Positions 11,911 to 31,925 of a DNA stretch of 45,910 bases are shown in pieces. The notes below the pieces were generated by a model that saw only the letters and a list, made by a program, of their open reading frames with translations, did not search any database and was not told the origin of the DNA. Numbering within the stretch: position 1 is the first letter of the stretch; every line of letters starts with the position of its first letter. A program made the position numbers and the translations under genes. This stretch comes from an uncultured Sulfolobales archaeon. GTDB lineage: Archaea > Thermoproteota > Thermoprotei_A > Sulfolobales > NBVN01. The DNA lies in contig CALIBI010000019.1 in NCBI GenBank assembly GCA_938045815.1, positions 1-45,910 on the forward strand. Direction: 5' to 3'.

Positions 11911-12603
11911 TTAACATAATAACAGCGTGAGGATTAAAGTAGCTAAGACTACTAAGGTAATGAATGTGTGTTTAATACTATACTCGTAGGAAGGCTTGTA
12001 ATCAGGCTTACTAAACAACCCCTCCTCATACAGGGACACGTATTCCTCAGTAGTTAATACAGCAATAGCTAGACTCTTCCAAGCTTCCACCTTCTTCATC
12101 TCACCAACTAGTAACGCTGTCTCCATATCCCTCATTACGTGCGGTATAACTCTCCAGGTAAGAACAGGATATAAGGAAAGATTCCCTAAATTAAGCAGTC
12201 TTAACACAAACGAGATCTCTACAGGGTTTAGGAAGTAAAAAAAGCAAAGAAAAGAAAGACTTACAGTAAACACCCTCAAAGCTATTAAAGCTGATGTCAA
12301 GAAACTCATAGTGAAAGGTAGTGAGACTACAAAATACCACGTGCTAGGTATTAACGCTAAAACGCTTGAATAAGCAACTACTTTACTAGACCCTCGTATA
12401 ACGTATGTGAGCAGAACTGAAGCAAGAACGACTAGCAAGCGCTCAATACCACCTCTAGCTACCAAAATTTGGGTAGCTAGTAGTGCTAGATTGATTATGA
12501 TAGGGACGTGTCTTCCCTCAATATCTCCGTAAATGAAAACAGACCTAAATAGTAGTGATGTAATCAATCTTAAAAGCTCAGTAATTCTTTTAAGAACGCT
12601 CAA
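11911..12603 (-). CDS. ECF transporter transmembrane (T) component
   Basis: Hydrophobic 230 aa CbiQ/EcfT-like protein, with METALLVGEMKKVEAWKS resembling the coupling helices. Follows the ECF ATPase gene. Confidence 0.7.
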   Translation of the reverse strand: MSVLKRITELLRLITSLLFRSVFIYGDIEGRHVPIIINLALLATQILVARGGIERLLVVLASVLLTYVIRGSSKVVAYSSVLALIPSTWYFVVSLPFTMSFLTSALIALRVFTVSLSFLCFFYFLNPVEISFVLRLLNLGNLSLYPVLTWRVIPHVMRDMETALLVGEMKKVEAWKSLAIAVLTTEEYVSLYEEGLFSKPDYKPSYEYSIKHTFITLVVLATLILTLLLC

Positions 12604-13849
12604 TACATACCACCTTATTAGCTATCATCTCTACGAAGGGGTCGTGAGAAGCTATCACGAATCCCACACCCATATCAGCAGCCTTAATAATTGCTTCGAT
12701 AACGCGCAGCTTGTTTAGCGGGTCTAGACCTGCTGTAGGTTCATCCATGAGGATATACTCGTAGTTTCTTGAGAGAGCTGAAGCTATAGCTAATCTCCTC
12801 CTCTCACCACTACTGAGCTTCATAATAGGAGTTTCAGCCTTATCACTAATACCTAAATACTCAAGGTATTTCAAGCCATTCACACCGACTTCCTCGGCTG
12901 GAGTAGGGTGACTTAAGTAAAGTAGAGAGTTATCAGGAACTAAGACAGCCTTACAGTGCCTCGTCTCAGAACTAACTATTTTATTATTTCTGAGGCACCC
13001 ACTCGCTATTAGCTTAAGCAACGTAGTCTTGCCTGACCCGGAAGAACCCTTAACAACTACAACTTCCCCCTTACATACCTCGAAGCTTATGTTGGTTAGT
13101 AGAGGTTCTTCTGAATCAGGGAACTTAAAACTGTCAACACGTATCTTTAGGCACTCACCATCTCCTGAATTCGGTGGTCTTAGCTCGCGATTCATGTAAT
13201 CAGTAACTTCCTTAAAAGGATTTTCCGACGTCTCAGTTAGTCTCCCTCCACTGAGATACAAGACCTTACTCACGTAATCACTCCACAACGTTAAGTCGTG
13301 ATCTACTACAACAAACGTTCTGCCATAATCCCTACTAAGCTTACCAACAAATCTTACTAAATTCTCAGAATTGCGTTTATCTAGGTAGGAGGTAGGCTCG
13401 TCTAAAAGAATTATTTCCTTCCCTGAATTCACGGCTATCACGAAAGCAAGTCTCTGAATCTCGCCAGCACTTAAGGTATACGTAGTTCTGCTAACGTGCT
13501 GACCTAACCCGAACTCTTCAAGAACTCTTCTCAGAGTGTTTGTGGATTTTATGTTGGTGTAGCCCGCAACCTCTGACCATACGTAGGGGGTTGAAATAAA
13601 AAACCAAGGTTCTTGATGAACATACATGGTTCTTCTCTTAAGTGATTCGAGAGGCGGATTAGAGAAACCCTTAACAGTACCCTTAATAGCTGAAGGTATT
13701 ACACCACTCAAGGTTTTCAGCAGTGTTGATTTCCCAGAACCTGAGGGCCCAACTAGTAGGACTACAGAGCTTTCCTCAATACTGAAGGAAACATCCTTCA
13801 GTATGTGGGAGTTATTAATCCATACGTTGATGTCTTTCACTTCTATCAA
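12590..13849 (-). CDS. ECF transporter ATP-binding protein, tandem A-A' fusion
   Basis: Two Walker A motifs (GPSGSGKST, GSSGSGKTT), two signature motifs (LSAGE, LSSGE) and two Walker B motifs (LLDEPT, LMDEPT). Confidence 0.9.
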   Translation of the reverse strand: MIEVKDINVWINNSHILKDVSFSIEESSVVLLVGPSGSGKSTLLKTLSGVIPSAIKGTVKGFSNPPLESLKRRTMYVHQEPWFFISTPYVWSEVAGYTNIKSTNTLRRVLEEFGLGQHVSRTTYTLSAGEIQRLAFVIAVNSGKEIILLDEPTSYLDKRNSENLVRFVGKLSRDYGRTFVVVDHDLTLWSDYVSKVLYLSGGRLTETSENPFKEVTDYMNRELRPPNSGDGECLKIRVDSFKFPDSEEPLLTNISFEVCKGEVVVVKGSSGSGKTTLLKLIASGCLRNNKIVSSETRHCKAVLVPDNSLLYLSHPTPAEEVGVNGLKYLEYLGISDKAETPIMKLSSGERRRLAIASALSRNYEYILMDEPTAGLDPLNKLRVIEAIIKAADMGVGFVIASHDPFVEMIANKVVCIERS

Positions 13850-13857
13850 ATCAGGTA

Positions 13858-14604
13858 CTACCCTCTAGCTCTATTAATAAACGTGATAACAGGTGATGAG
13901 AATGCTAAACCTACTAGAGCTTGACCTAAGTTAACAGGAACCTCAACGAAAGCTTCTTCAGGAGGTATTCCCTGAAGAGGGTTAGAGACAAAGTACTCGT
14001 AAAGGAAATATCCTGTAACCATTATCAGCCCACTAAGTAGGACCGGAATAACGAAACTTATGCTTTCACCCTTAGCTCTAATTACGAAGTAAGTTACTGA
14101 AGCAGTGACAGTTAAACCAATCAGGATCCAGAACCATGTAGTTATTGTGAATGTTGCGGAAAGCGCCATGACTTCAAAACCCATAATACTAAGCGGCACA
14201 GAATATACCTCAACTTCTCCAGTGAAAAGAACTACTCCTAACCCAGCTATCAAAACCCCTAGAAACACCCCTATGATCAACGAGGCTACTCGCACTCTAG
14301 AATGAGGTAATTCCTTCCTGAAGAAAGAAATTAGTAGTGATGCTACGAAGCCTTCAGTAAACTTAATCACTAGCGTGCCGGGCGCGAAGATCCCGTAACC
14401 AGTCACCAGGTCTGCTAGAGCTGAACCAACTCCTCCCGCAATACCTGCGGTGAGCGGTGAAGTCAGTGCTGCGATAGTGTATATAGCTACCTCACCAAGA
14501 TTAAAATAGCCTCGAGTAGCTGGTGTGTATACTTGAAGTACTATGGTAGCTATTAAGACCAACGCAGTATATAGGGAAACCCTAACCACGTTCATTAACT
14601 GCAC
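13858..14604 (-). CDS. ECF transporter substrate-binding (S) component, substrate unknown
   Basis: Six-TM-like protein with GYFNLGEVAIYTIAALTSPLTAGIAGGVGSALADLVTGYGIFAPGTLVIKFTEGF. Confidence 0.8.
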   Translation of the reverse strand: MQLMNVVRVSLYTALVLIATIVLQVYTPATRGYFNLGEVAIYTIAALTSPLTAGIAGGVGSALADLVTGYGIFAPGTLVIKFTEGFVASLLISFFRKELPHSRVRVASLIIGVFLGVLIAGLGVVLFTGEVEVYSVPLSIMGFEVMALSATFTITTWFWILIGLTVTASVTYFVIRAKGESISFVIPVLLSGLIMVTGYFLYEYFVSNPLQGIPPEEAFVEVPVNLGQALVGLAFSSPVITFINRARG

Positions 14605-14675
14605 CCACGTACCACAACATAAGAATGTTTTTAGGTGATTAATTCACTATTAGGTTCACCATTAGCTAGCAACAT

Positions 14676-16007
14676 TCACATGAGATACTTCAAGCCTAAC
14701 TCCGTTATAGAGACTACCTTCCTAGTTCTCCCCTCAACCTTCTCGTAACCAACTACTTTCAGGAGACCTAATTCAATAAGTTCTTCTACGTGCTTGTATA
14801 TAATCCTCTTGCTTACGTTGAGTCCATGCTTCTGCTTAAGTTCTTTCCACAGCATGTATGGGTGAGCTGGGTTGCCGTAAGCAAGAACCTCTAAGATTTT
14901 CGTTTTAGTAAAGCCTAGAGTTACTATATGTTCTTCAGGTTTCACGGTCTTCCCGAGAAGAGCCTTAATAACGTATGGGTCTTGTAACGGGTCGCCCGAC
15001 ATTAAGGCTACAGTAGTGAGGTTTTTCATGTTTTTAGTGAGTACTTTCTTAAGTGCAGCTATGCATGAAGCTCCTACAGGACCTATTAAGAAGCCCTCCA
15101 TCTTAACCATGAGTTCACTGGCTTCAAGTGCTTCATCATCGCACACACTAACAACTTCTACGAGGTCCTGTTCTTCAAGTTTTTTAAGGTATTCTTGGAG
15201 CATGGGCTTAGCAACGTAGATATCTCTTAGTAGTGGGGATTCTTTACATGCTCTGACTCCTAAGATCTTGTGTTGGACTCGTAGATCCTCAAGCACGTAA
15301 TGAATACTTAAGGCTAGAACTCCATCACCTATCGGAGCTACGATCATTAAAGGCTTCTTCTTGCCTAGCGAGTAGATTATTTCAATAGCTATTGTTCTGT
15401 ACCCGTCAATTAAGAATGGATTAGTAGGTAATACTATTGTGTCATAAAACTGCGTGCTCTTTAAGGCTTTAGATAATGCTTCCTCATAACTATCAACGAA
15501 TCTAACCTTATCACTCACTAAGAGTGTTTTATATGCTTTGTTCAGAGTAACGCTGGACGGTATGTATGCTTTGCTGGATATCCCGGCACGCTTCAGGTAT
15601 GTTGATAAAGATATGGCTAAGTCTCCGGTGGACGGGATCACTACGGACCTAATTTTGAAGTACTTTAGAGCTGTAGCTAGCGTAGCAGAACCTCTATCTA
15701 TGAAGGAGCCTGTAGGATTCTTAGATTCGTCTTTTAAATACGGCGTTAAGCCAATACTCTTCCCGATCTTAGCAGACTTTACGAGGGGAGTATTACCCTC
15801 ACCTAAAGTAATCTTTGGCGTCATGCGTGAAGTATATAAGTTGCTACTCCAAGCCCAAATTCCTGATCTCTTACCCCTTCTTAAAGGCTCGGAAGAACGA
15901 GTTATTAAGAGACCCCCGCAATTAGGGCAGCGATCAATATACCTAACCTCACCCACCTCATAACCACACCTAACGCAGCGAAGCTCGATCCCCAACTCTA
16001 GCCACAC
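14676..16007 (-). CDS. Threonine-synthase-like (PLP fold-type II) pseudoenzyme fused to a C-terminal winged-helix domain
   Basis: N-terminal zinc ribbon (CVRCGYEVG...CPNCGG), EGNTPLV, NPTGSFIDRG (Lys to Ile), PSTGD (Asn to Asp). The C-terminal ~80 aa (KILEVLAYGNPAHPYMLWKELKQKHGLNVSKRIIYKHVEELIELGLLKV...TELGLKYL) is wHTH-like. Confidence 0.85.
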   Translation of the reverse strand: MWLELGIELRCVRCGYEVGEVRYIDRCPNCGGLLITRSSEPLRRGKRSGIWAWSSNLYTSRMTPKITLGEGNTPLVKSAKIGKSIGLTPYLKDESKNPTGSFIDRGSATLATALKYFKIRSVVIPSTGDLAISLSTYLKRAGISSKAYIPSSVTLNKAYKTLLVSDKVRFVDSYEEALSKALKSTQFYDTIVLPTNPFLIDGYRTIAIEIIYSLGKKKPLMIVAPIGDGVLALSIHYVLEDLRVQHKILGVRACKESPLLRDIYVAKPMLQEYLKKLEEQDLVEVVSVCDDEALEASELMVKMEGFLIGPVGASCIAALKKVLTKNMKNLTTVALMSGDPLQDPYVIKALLGKTVKPEEHIVTLGFTKTKILEVLAYGNPAHPYMLWKELKQKHGLNVSKRIIYKHVEELIELGLLKVVGYEKVEGRTRKVVSITELGLKYLM

Positions 16008-16070: not shown

Positions 16071-16526
16071 ATGACTGAGTGGCCTAGAATAGCTGTGGGG
16101 GCAGTAGTTCTTAAAAATAATGATGAGATCCTGCTTATTAAGAGGAAGTATCCTCCATCACCTAATCTGTGGTCAATACCTGGTGGGCACATAGAAGTAG
16201 GGGAACCCGTGCTAGTAGCCCTATTTAGGGAATTAGAGGAAGAAACCTCACTTAAAGCTAGTAAGGCAACACTACTAGCCATAACTGAATACATTAGACT
16301 AAGGAAAGACTACAGCGTAAAATACCACTACATAATATTAGATTACCTAATCACCGACGCCGAAGGAGAGCCTACAGCAAACGAGGAATCTCTTGGCATA
16401 GGATTCTTCAGGTTTAGTGAGGCTTTAAAGCTAGAATTAACAGACACTACTAAAGAATTAATAAGACTAATAATGAGTGAAGGTACGAGCAAGGTGAAAC
16501 ACATAGTTAACGTAGTCTACGAGTAG
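16071..16526 (+). CDS. NUDIX hydrolase
   Basis: Nudix box GGHIEVGEPVLVALFRELEEETSL. Confidence 0.92.
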   Translation: MTEWPRIAVGAVVLKNNDEILLIKRKYPPSPNLWSIPGGHIEVGEPVLVALFRELEEETSLKASKATLLAITEYIRLRKDYSVKYHYIILDYLITDAEGEPTANEESLGIGFFRFSEALKLELTDTTKELIRLIMSEGTSKVKHIVNVVYE

Positions 16527-26249: not shown

Positions 26250-27977
26250 CTAAATTCTTAAAGAACTAACTAACGCTTCCGAAATCTCGCTAGTCTTCAC
26301 CAAGCCTCTCAAACCTACTTCCCTAGCTATTAGCGTTGACTGGAGTGGCATGAAGCCTTGAGTTCTCAGCCACTCAATATCGCTTAAGACTTCTCTTACG
26401 GTGCCAAGACGTTTTATAGAGCCATTATCTAACACGACCACTTTATCAGCTACTTCACTAATTAGCTGGAGATCATGCGCTACTAAGATTACGGTGCCCC
26501 CGCTCTCGACAAATCTTCTTAAAGATAACAGAAGCTGGAGACTCCTCTTATAATCGAGTCCTGAAAACGGTTCATCCAAGACTAGTGCTTGAGGCTTTAA
26601 AGCAAGTATTGAAGCTATAGCTAACCTGTGTTTCTCACCAAAACTAAGGAGGTGGGGTGAGATATCTAACGGCTTAACTAAATCAACTATCTCGAAGGCT
26701 TCCTTAATTCTGCTTTCTATTTCATCTTTCTTTAAACCAGTCTTCTTAAGAGAGAAGCTCATTTCCTCATATATTGTGCTCGCGAAGAATTGAGCTTCTG
26801 GATTCTGCATTACCATCCCAACGATCCTAGCTAATGTGGACGTGGGTGTTTTTCTAGTATCTCGCCCTGCTACAATCACGCTACCTTTCACAGGCTTTAA
26901 TAAACCGTTAAATTGCTTCACTAGAGTTGTTTTCCCAGCACCGCTATGTCCTATAATAGCTACGAACTCCCCCCTACAGATGTCTAAATTAATGTTTTTG
27001 AGAACCCATGGTAAGTCCTTCTTGTACCTGAACCAGAGATCTCTAACACTGATTAAGGAGTCGTTACACGGCTTAATAGACTCCTCTACGGGAGCGATAT
27101 GATGTAGCGTGCTTGTGTTAAGCCCTACCTTATTTATTATGTTGAGCGCCTCATTCAGTGTTACAGGCATCTTATTTCTGATGAGGTTCGGCTTACGCTC
27201 ACTTATCTTATAGAAGATTTCAGAAACTTGTGGAGGTCTTACTCCAGTTTTCTGAATTAACTCAACATCATTAAATATCTCTTGCGGTGTTCCTTCACCC
27301 GTAAACTCGCCGTCCTTCATTATCACGATCTTGTCAGCATGTTCCGCTATCCACTCAATTCTGTGCTCAACCACTAGTAAAGAAAGATTCGTCTCTCTCT
27401 TCAGCTTCTCGACTAGACTTAATATCCTGGTGGTTCCTACGTGATCCAGCATAGAAGTAGGCTCGTCTAAAACAAGAATTTTAGGTCTTAGAGCAAGTAC
27501 TGATGCTATGGCTAGTACTTGCTTCTCTCCGGAACTAAGTTCGTGTGGATCTTCAAACTCTCTGCCTCTAAACCCAATAAAGTCTAGGATTTCAGTTACT
27601 CGGTTTTCAATTTCCTTTCTATCTAGGTTTAAGTTCTCCAACCCAAACACTAACTCCTCAAGAACTGTAGGCATTATAACCTGGAGTTCAGGATTCTGAA
27701 AAACAAAACCTATATGTCTGCTCAGTATTTCAGGTCTTACTTCTTTAGTATTCATCCCTAGAACACTCACGTTACCTTTTAATTCTCCTCTTATTACGTG
27801 CGGTATCATCCCGACCAGGGTGTATAAGAATGTTGACTTGCCGCAACCTGAAGGACCCATGATAACTACTGTTTCTCCCTCTCTCATTTTAAAGTTAAGG
27901 TTTTTTAGAACCCACTCATTACTAGCTGAGTACTTAAACCATAGATCCTCAACACTAATTACTGTAGACATACTCAC
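26250..27977 (-). CDS. ECF transporter ATP-binding protein, tandem A-A' fusion
   Basis: Two ABC domains: GPSGCGKST/LSSGEKQ/LDEPTS and GHSGAGKTT/LSFGEKH/LDEPFSGLD. Confidence 0.92.
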   Translation of the reverse strand: MSMSTVISVEDLWFKYSASNEWVLKNLNFKMREGETVVIMGPSGCGKSTFLYTLVGMIPHVIRGELKGNVSVLGMNTKEVRPEILSRHIGFVFQNPELQVIMPTVLEELVFGLENLNLDRKEIENRVTEILDFIGFRGREFEDPHELSSGEKQVLAIASVLALRPKILVLDEPTSMLDHVGTTRILSLVEKLKRETNLSLLVVEHRIEWIAEHADKIVIMKDGEFTGEGTPQEIFNDVELIQKTGVRPPQVSEIFYKISERKPNLIRNKMPVTLNEALNIINKVGLNTSTLHHIAPVEESIKPCNDSLISVRDLWFRYKKDLPWVLKNINLDICRGEFVAIIGHSGAGKTTLVKQFNGLLKPVKGSVIVAGRDTRKTPTSTLARIVGMVMQNPEAQFFASTIYEEMSFSLKKTGLKKDEIESRIKEAFEIVDLVKPLDISPHLLSFGEKHRLAIASILALKPQALVLDEPFSGLDYKRSLQLLLSLRRFVESGGTVILVAHDLQLISEVADKVVVLDNGSIKRLGTVREVLSDIEWLRTQGFMPLQSTLIAREVGLRGLVKTSEISEALVSSLRI

Positions 27978-28795
27978 ACGCCCCTTAAGAAGTAATATGT
28001 AGAGAAACCTGTTAACTTAAGGATAATTAACGACGCGTATATTACTGCTAGCAGCAACAGTGATATTGTGTCTTTCCTACTCCATCTAGGAGGGAAGTAG
28101 TATGATCTTTTAGGGTACGCTCCGAACCCTCTAACACTTAAAACTATGCTTAAGTCCCACACGTAACTCATCATCCTTATTACTAAAGGAACGAAAATAG
28201 GAACTACGTAAACTATCTTCTTGACAGGATTTCTTGAATCAACTTCTAGTCCTCTAGCTTTCTGAACATCAACTATGTTCCTTATCTCCATGAACGTGTA
28301 GGGGAGTAAACCTAAGGCTAGGGCAAACATAAAGCCTGCTTTATAAGGTAGCCCGGCTCTAGTGATGACGTAATGTAAGTCATACATCTTAGTAGTACTC
28401 ATGACTAACAAGAAAGCCGTAATTGGGTTTACTATCAAGAAGAACTTCCCAGTTCCTACCAAGAGACCTACATCAGTTAATCTTATGTTAGCTAGAGGGA
28501 AAGTAGCTACGTAGATGCCTACGTCCTGATACATAGATGCCCACACTAAAGTAGTCACTAGAAAGAATACTATGCTGTATGCTATAGTTAAAATGGCTCT
28601 TTTCACAGATATTTTAGCGAGTATTAGCCCTACTATAAGTGATAAGTACACGAATACTGAAACAGAACCATCCCACTGACTAACCACGGAAGCTGAGAAA
28701 GCTAAGACAAACCAAGCTAATTTCACACGAGCATCTAACCTATGTATTACGGACTCCCTAGGAATGTAGAGCCCTGATAGAGACACTTTAGTCAC
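27974..28795 (-). CDS. ECF transporter transmembrane (T) component
   Basis: CbiQ/EcfT features: SVIHRLDARVKLAWF, VDVQKARGLEVD, VIRMMSYVWDLSIVLSVRGFG. Overlaps the ATPase gene. Confidence 0.9.
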   Translation of the reverse strand: MTKVSLSGLYIPRESVIHRLDARVKLAWFVLAFSASVVSQWDGSVSVFVYLSLIVGLILAKISVKRAILTIAYSIVFFLVTTLVWASMYQDVGIYVATFPLANIRLTDVGLLVGTGKFFLIVNPITAFLLVMSTTKMYDLHYVITRAGLPYKAGFMFALALGLLPYTFMEIRNIVDVQKARGLEVDSRNPVKKIVYVVPIFVPLVIRMMSYVWDLSIVLSVRGFGAYPKRSYYFPPRWSRKDTISLLLLAVIYASLIILKLTGFSTYYFLRGV

Positions 28796-30786: not shown

Positions 30787-31062
30787 ATGATAGATCCGTA
30801 TCTCGTCTTAACCGTTATAGGAATAGTAATACTTGTTATCGGTGTAGTTCTCTTAGCTGGAAAGATGAAGGGAGGGCTTATATTATCGCTGATAGGAATC
30901 TTATGGCTTTTCACTATGGGACTCTATTACGCCTTCACTTACACCGGAGTATATAGCTCAGGTCTTTACCCAATAGCTAACATAATAGGTGTCGTGCTTT
31001 TGATTGTTGGCTTAGTCTTAGTGCTTCGTTACTGGGCACGAACAGGTGTATTGAGGAGGTGA
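30787..31062 (+). CDS. Small hypothetical membrane protein
   Basis: 91 aa with three hydrophobic segments. Overlaps the start of the downstream S-component gene. Confidence 0.75.
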   Translation: MIDPYLVLTVIGIVILVIGVVLLAGKMKGGLILSLIGILWLFTMGLYYAFTYTGVYSSGLYPIANIIGVVLLIVGLVLVLRYWARTGVLRR

Positions 31063-31925
31063 GTATGATGGCTTCTAAGTCTGTCTCATCTGCTTTATGG
31101 ATTATTGCTTTCATAATAGCTGTTATCTTCGTGGTTTTCATATTCTATATAGGGTTCGACATACTGACTAAGGGGCTTGATAAACCTGGTGAGTGGATCA
31201 TAACACAGCCCTTCAACGTCTTAGTAGGATATGAAATAGTAGGAACAGATGGAGCATTCTTAGTTAGCGGAGTTTTATGGGTTGTAGGCACAATCATATT
31301 CTTCATGGAGTTAAGCGGCAGAACTTTCAAAGGTTTTAGGATAGTAAGGCAAGAAATAAAATGGGACGCGATTGATGTCTCTACTACTGCATTATCTGCA
31401 GCTGTTTACGGTGGTGCGTTAGCAGCTACTGGAGGAATTCCCATAATACCGGGCTTTACGTGGGTGAGACCTGGTAATGCTCTAGCACCACTCTTCGGAA
31501 TACTATTCGGTATTCCCGGAGCTTTAGGAACATCGATAGGAAACTTCATAGCTGACGCGTTAGCTGGATACTTAGGTGTAGGAAGTATAGGAGGTTTCAT
31601 AGGAAACTTCATAATAGCTTACGTGCCTTACAAGTTAATGAGAGACCACAGCTTCAGGACGCCGCGCAGCATAATTGAATTCTACGTATGGGGAGTTCTG
31701 GTAGCTAGTGTGTGGTGCTCGCTATACATTTCTTGGTGGCTTGATGCCCTACAGCCTGTCATAGGACTACCTAGAGGGTTCATTTGGGGCTTCTTTGCAC
31801 CTTGGGTAATATTCAACAACGCATTCATAACAGCTATAGTAACTCCAATATTAGGCTTCATACTATATCCACCAATAAAGGCGCGAGGTCTCTACTGGGC
31901 TGACAGAATAAGAATCATAGGATAA
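31059..31925 (+). CDS. Putative ECF-type substrate-binding (S) membrane component
   Basis: VRPGNALAPLFGILFGIPGALGTSIGNFIADALAGYLGVGSIGGFIGNFIIAYVPYKL is S-component-like. Close to ECF A and T genes. Confidence 0.65.
   Translation: MSMMASKSVSSALWIIAFIIAVIFVVFIFYIGFDILTKGLDKPGEWIITQPFNVLVGYEIVGTDGAFLVSGVLWVVGTIIFFMELSGRTFKGFRIVRQEIKWDAIDVSTTALSAAVYGGALAATGGIPIIPGFTWVRPGNALAPLFGILFGIPGALGTSIGNFIADALAGYLGVGSIGGFIGNFIIAYVPYKLMRDHSFRTPRSIIEFYVWGVLVASVWCSLYISWWLDALQPVIGLPRGFIWGFFAPWVIFNNAFITAIVTPILGFILYPPIKARGLYWADRIRIIG

Follow-up and report, generated by a model that had tools for sequence, protein, structure and literature searches.

A threonine synthase-like protein with a winged helix and without the PLP lysine is a predicted vitamin B6-responsive regulator in Thermoproteota

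Results

The locus and its genes

The window analyzed here is a DNA stretch of 45,910 nucleotides from an uncultured Sulfolobales archaeon. The open reading frame at 14676-16007 on its minus strand has GTG as its start codon and encodes a protein of 443 amino acids, in which a threonine synthase-like pseudoenzyme is joined to a C-terminal winged helix, and which we call the regulator. It is followed on the same strand, after 71 bp, by an ECF S-component (13858-14604), predicted to be the substrate-binding subunit of a vitamin B6 transporter of the HmpT/PdxU-like kind (PF07155, E 8e-24), then by a tandem ECF ATPase with two ABC domains in one protein (12590-13849) and by a probable ECF T-component (11911-12603). 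The last assignment relies on position and conserved synteny, and a Pfam search with this protein gave no convincing match. On the other side of the regulator, a Nudix hydrolase gene (16071-16526) is a conserved divergent neighbor across family f1; in some f4 genomes, a Nudix gene adjoins the S gene or the regulator (L086, L090, L192, L195).

The regulator starts with a zinc ribbon formed by C11, C14, C27 and C30 (15918-15977, minus strand); in an alignment of 48 homologs, the last three cysteines are invariant and C11 is nearly so. Residues 66-338 (14994-15812, minus strand) form a PALP domain, characteristic of fold-type II PLP enzymes, according to both Pfam (PF00291, E 1e-39) and Foldseek. 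The best sequence match in the PDB is a threonine synthase (2d1f, E 9e-26), and the top Foldseek matches of an AlphaFold2 model (pLDDT 91, pTM 0.82) are threonine synthases as well (2zsj_A, E 1e-20). The alignment with 2d1f pairs SFKDRG with SFIDRG, and STGN with STGD. On the minus strand, the region reads GGC TCC TTC ATA GAT AGA GGT, so that Ile103, encoded by ATA at 15701-15699, occupies the position where the Schiff-base lysine is expected. Asp129 (15621-15623, minus strand) replaces the asparagine that contacts O3' of PLP, and the phosphate-binding loop is altered to GDGVL (15315-15329, minus strand; canonical GNAGN). A reading of the sequence on its own had claimed a threonine synthase scaffold with these lesions, and its observations were borne out: EGNTPL, NPFLIDGYRT, SGDPLQDP, PSTGD and PIGDGVL are all present, as is SFIDRG with its ATA codon at 15699-15701.

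That reading had also likened the last 80 or so residues to a winged helix-turn-helix, and three lines of evidence agree with it. Residues 371-442 (14682-14897, minus strand) match the PadR winged helix in Pfam with an E-value of 7e-5, albeit at 23.1 bits, below the gathering threshold of 27, and the same domain is matched with E 0.01 or better in 42 of the 48 homologs. A profile of the C-terminal domain retrieves PadR-family regulators from the PDB (3elk, E 2e-9; 5dym; AphA). Finally, the C-terminus is predicted by AlphaFold2 to fold as helix-helix-helix-strand-strand. We refer to it as a predicted PadR-like DNA-binding domain.

The gene is under purifying selection, with a dN/dS over its whole length of about 0.07-0.11 within the genus for pairs that are unsaturated at synonymous sites, and the position of Ile103 is isoleucine in all five genomes of the genus. 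We considered decay, chance or a sequencing error as the origin of the lost lysine and rejected them, given a dN/dS of about 0.1, the presence of the isoleucine throughout the genus and the single clade that such proteins form across the phylum.

Lysine loss accompanies winged-helix fusion

We collected 108 homologs from 231 genomes of the class and from a sample of the phylum Thermoproteota; many of these genomes are metagenome-assembled. Of the 87 homologs in the winged-helix group, which includes two proteins cut at contig ends, 85 lack the PLP lysine, with Ile, Leu, Met, Val, Ala, Thr, Arg, Phe or Tyr in its place. The homologs without the fusion have the lysine in 20 of 20 cases, and one more such sequence is truncated at this position. 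When the lysine column was left out of the alignment, a tree of the enzyme domain still grouped the fused proteins in a single clade (87 rows, SH-aLRT 93), one half of which is mostly Arg-type and the other mostly hydrophobic-type. Retention of the lysine in fused orthologs would have spoken for an enzyme, and just two of the 87 have it; both nest in the Arg half of the tree, within a clade that had exchanged lysine for arginine, and are therefore probably reversions.

The sequence-only reading had asked whether both the lysine loss and the exchange of the O3' asparagine are conserved in fused orthologs. The loss proved general, but the exchange did not: the position is asparagine in all 20 unfused homologs and aspartate in 33 of 46 members of the hydrophobic-type clade, whereas Arg-type members retain the asparagine, together with a GSG-type phosphate loop and mostly also a TGxGLK motif. 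This makes PLP binding without a Schiff base plausible for the Arg-type. The window subtype is more diverged than the Arg-type, with both the O3' asparagine and the phosphate loop changed, so that PLP itself may not be its ligand. Much of the surroundings of the lost lysine is nevertheless kept, and E70, T73, K92, N97, P98, D104 and R105 are invariant in the 48-sequence alignment.

A degenerate-peptide scan of GTDB contigs yielded only two close relatives, from a Desulfurococcaceae archaeon and a Sulfolobales archaeon. The family as a whole is large, and its members are often annotated as threonine synthase. The NCBIfam model NF004170 (PRK05638), named “threonine synthase”, spans the fusion architecture over its full length and appears to describe this fused family. 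All 12 of its members above cut-off that we found carry the arginine and the winged helix, and the enzyme name therefore looks wrong.

The transporter and vitamin B6 synthesis

The profile of the S-component has a single convincing match in the PDB, HmpT of L. brevis (4hzu_S, E 6.5e-16). Of the seven residues named for HmpT, E41, Y120, N140 and Q143 correspond to E38, Y199, N225 and Q228 of the archaeal S-component, four positions that do not vary among 20 archaeal sequences. Pyridoxamine has been extracted from HmpT and identified as substrate by mass spectrometry (PMC4860826), and both PdxU and PdxU2/HmpT belong to PF07155 (PMC9997740).

Genes of this S-component family adjoin or diverge from most Arg-type and many hydrophobic-type regulators across the phylum, as judged from neighborhoods in which genes were called with a simple ORF picker. 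In some families, among them f7, f31 and f51, the regulator has no S gene beside it. Within the class, the S-component is present in 54 of 61 regulator-bearing genomes. Conversely, our search detected no regulator in 49 of the 103 S-bearing genomes of the class, which indicates that other controls of the transporter exist. In one genome (G096), which also has PdxS, an 85-amino-acid regulator remnant (L193:4003-4260) adjoins the S gene.

The only route of PLP synthesis in Archaea is that of PdxS/PdxT (PMC9997740). Neither the window genome nor any of the four other genomes of its genus has PdxS. Across the 231 class genomes, 24 have both the S-component and PdxS, 79 only the S-component, 90 only PdxS and 38 neither, an anticorrelation with an odds ratio of 0.13 (Fisher P 9e-13) that persists after stratification by family (OR 0.26, P 2e-4). 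ThiC (OR 0.22) and RibH are also anticorrelated with the S-component across the class, if more weakly, so that phylogeny contributes, and our phylogenetic tests are coarse. When family f9 is left out and only genomes at least 90% complete are counted, the P-values are 2e-4 for PdxS, 0.12 for ThiC and 0.20 for RibH. Riboflavin, suggested as a substrate by the Pfam name of PF07155, was rejected on the grounds that the RibH association is not significant without f9. Among 32 further regulator-bearing genomes, nearly all from outside the class, PdxS is absent in 28. In another genome, G116, the regulator, pdxS and pdxT follow each other in this order on the same strand.

The window genome encodes a PF08543 kinase, which could phosphorylate imported vitamers. 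In other families, a PurM/AIR-synthase-like gene (a relative of HypE, ThiL and SelD) is often found 3' of the S gene (L133:7290-8315, also L131, L139, L142, L150, L157 and L200), and it is possibly a B6-related kinase. A TldD/PmbA pair also recurs next to the regulator or the S gene (L067, L069, L085, L165). At 26250-28795 and 31059-31925, the window contains a second ECF-like module, consisting of a tandem ATPase and a T-like protein, with a QueT-like membrane protein (PF06177) nearby.

Candidate operators

Upstream of the S gene, at 14645-14662 on the minus strand, lies a direct repeat with a period of 12 bp, ATGGTGAACCTAATAGTG, which is a candidate operator on comparative grounds. Comparison by eye shows a conserved TATA-like element, CCTAAAAAC, just downstream of it (14627-14635, minus strand). 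In family f1, 13 genomes with an I-type regulator have the repeat ATAkTGAAnnnnATAkTG upstream of the S gene, and 13 of its 15 best matches in 650 kb (both strands) are upstream of S genes; it is absent from the four f1 S promoters in genomes that lack an I-type regulator (P 4e-4). The window copy has one mismatch to this pattern, and in the whole window genome it is the only site with two or fewer mismatches to the genus consensus. By itself the motif is not rare, with 0.26 copies expected in the window, so that an operator search confined to the window is uninformative and the signal is a comparative one. In the window subtype, matches at pdxS promoters are weak, with three mismatches in both G170 and G163.

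Regulators of other families go with other motifs. In the Arg-type family f4, the inverted repeat CTTAAAG-N5-ACTTTATA is present at 15 of 15 S promoters. A perfect copy lies at the pdxS gene of G091, and a further copy of this type at that of G230, where the contig is short and the assembly more contaminated. In 12 Arg-type genomes outside f4, a 22-bp palindrome, TAGTAWAGTTNNAACTWTACTA, occurs at 14 distinct sites, 13 of them at the S gene and one at the start of pdxS (G275). Weaker copies, with three or four mismatches, precede pdxS at the corresponding position in G456 and G382. The S promoters of family f7 have a different direct repeat, ATAyTTCGAT. As the motifs were found by eye and counted afterwards, the counts are descriptive. 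Independent checks are provided by a reversed-pattern control for TAGTAWAGTTNNAACTWTACTA, which gave no matches, by the sites at pdxS and by the f1 genomes without the regulator.

Discussion

Together, our data suggest that the regulator is an enzyme-derived, B6-responsive transcription factor that arose from a catalytically dead threonine synthase, a prediction to which we assign a probability of roughly 0.8. This reading is the best one because lysine loss with fusion, gene linkage, the mutual exclusion of S-component and PdxS, and the promoter repeats combine in its favor. The fold-type II domain, having lost the Schiff-base lysine and kept much of the surrounding pocket, would reversibly sense PLP or a B6 compound close to it, and the PadR-like winged helix would bind the repeat in the promoter of the downstream S-component gene. 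In the window lineage, which is without the PdxS/PdxT route, the regulator would thus match the uptake of B6 to the cellular level of PLP. The family as a whole very probably switches the genes for vitamin B6 uptake and synthesis on and off. DNA binding, the ligand, its non-covalent binding and the direction of control are features that we infer. The ligand may be PLP, a B6 vitamer or an adduct of PLP with an amino acid, and is least settled for the window subtype.

The enzyme ancestry leaves room for a sensor of amino acid metabolism. Such a sensor would recognize threonine, phosphohomoserine or a PLP-amino acid aldimine, and the B6 genes would be part of a regulon for PLP-dependent amino acid metabolism. 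The fold of the regulator is after all that of threonine synthase, the window subtype has a changed phosphate loop, the structure 1d6s captures the external aldimine in a lysine-less mutant of a fold-type II enzyme, and in family f26 an Arg-type regulator diverges from a lysine-bearing thrC (L137, L147, L164, L165, L166). However, the recurrent partners of the regulator are the HmpT-like S-component and, in one case, a pdxS/pdxT cluster, not threonine genes; the palindrome in the 12 Arg-type genomes occurs at S or pdxS genes only; and the thrC-like copies of the window genome sit on other contigs. As partners and operators point to B6, we do not favor amino acid regulation as the main role and consider it unlikely. 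Of the ligands named in the sequence-only reading, PLP or another B6 compound has thus gained ground, and an amino acid or phosphohomoserine has lost it.

We regard it as very unlikely that the transporter carries another vitamin, such as hydroxymethylpyrimidine or thiamine, and that the regulator senses the corresponding pathway. HmpT was originally named for hydroxymethylpyrimidine (PMC4860826), and the S-component is somewhat anticorrelated with ThiC, but the latter association fades without f9 when that with PdxS does not, and neither the regulator-pdxST cluster of G116 nor the candidate operators common to S and pdxS promoters would be expected. Still less probable is a protein that remains an enzyme and uses its winged helix in another role, for example in protein-protein contacts. 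The many invariant fold and pocket residues and the two lysine-bearing fused homologs would suit an enzyme; the replacement of the lysine by nine different residues in all other fused homologs, and the conserved operator-like repeats beside the gene, would not. Moreover, the window genome has lysine-bearing relatives on other contigs, namely threonine synthase-like proteins of 424 amino acids (SYKDRG) and 357 amino acids (SFKDRG) and a protein with SFKVRG.

The proposed B6-responsive transcription factor resembles PdxR of the MocR family, in which an enzyme-derived, PLP-related sensor is likewise joined to a winged helix. PdxR controls pdxST and the B6 transporter gene pdxU, and there are repeats in its target promoters (PMC5320631). 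In MocR/PdxR, however, the sensor is a fold-type I aminotransferase domain and the winged helix is GntR-type and N-terminal, whereas the window protein has a fold-type II PALP domain without lysine and a PadR-like winged helix at the C-terminus. MocR proteins have been reported to be absent from Archaea (PMC5320631). The window protein is thus predicted to be functionally like PdxR, yet is not a MocR member. The proposal that catalysis was lost and that the enzyme fold became the sensory part of a transcription factor, an archaeal fold-type II analog of MocR/PdxR, has gained support from the family-wide coincidence of lysine loss and fusion, the linkage to the S gene, the G116 cluster, the anticorrelation of S-component and PdxS and the promoter repeats common to S and pdxS genes.

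With threonine synthase, the regulator shares the fold, the zinc ribbon and the EGxTPL, NPTG and DR motifs, but where the enzyme has the PLP lysine, the O3' asparagine and the GNxGN loop, the regulator has Ile103, Asp129 and GDGVL. It resembles the PadR family in the sequence and predicted fold of its winged helix, which differs in being the C-terminal extension of a large enzyme-like domain. The S-component has the family membership and pocket residues of HmpT/PdxU2, but is archaeal, and in the window it is accompanied by a tandem ATPase of its own and by a probable T-component that is divergent. ThiR and RbkR are archaeal vitamin regulators with enzyme domains, and in them, too, an enzyme fold from the biology of the vitamin is the sensor of a DNA-binding domain or its partner; they serve thiamine and riboflavin, however, and have different folds.

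Position may hint at the direction of control. In Arg-type genomes, the palindromes coincide with the TATA box or the start, as would suit repression. The direct repeat of the window lies just upstream of the TATA-like element, a placement that would suit activation by the apo form, the mode reported for PdxR (PMC5320631), but is compatible with repression too. We consider it fairly probable that the regulators form a Thermoproteota-wide family of factors that arose by a single fusion of a PadR-type winged helix to a lysine-less threonine synthase, sense PLP without a Schiff base and control the import and synthesis of B6, with repressors among the Arg-type and possibly activators among the hydrophobic-type, to which the window belongs. 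This joint reading covers palindromic operators over the promoter for the Arg-type and direct repeats upstream of TATA-like elements for f1 and f7 members.

Our searches of the open-licence literature revealed neither a prior description of an archaeal B6 regulator nor one of this fusion. If our prediction is correct, Archaea would gain their first described regulator of vitamin B6 supply, and evolution would have been convergent, with Bacteria and Archaea each making a PLP enzyme, of unrelated folds, into a B6 sensor. The mechanism may even lie in the lost lysine, in whose absence a cofactor that is otherwise bound tightly would become a signal that can be exchanged. The prediction would also account for proteins that currently bear the name threonine synthase, provide a predicted B6 transporter for archaea without PdxS, and supply concrete candidate operators. 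A further palindrome, TGAACGTTCA, is found near pdxS (L223, L226, L228, L229, L239) and elsewhere at S promoters (L182, L192). We found no link between this motif and the regulator family; it is possible that it represents a second B6 operator, with another regulator.
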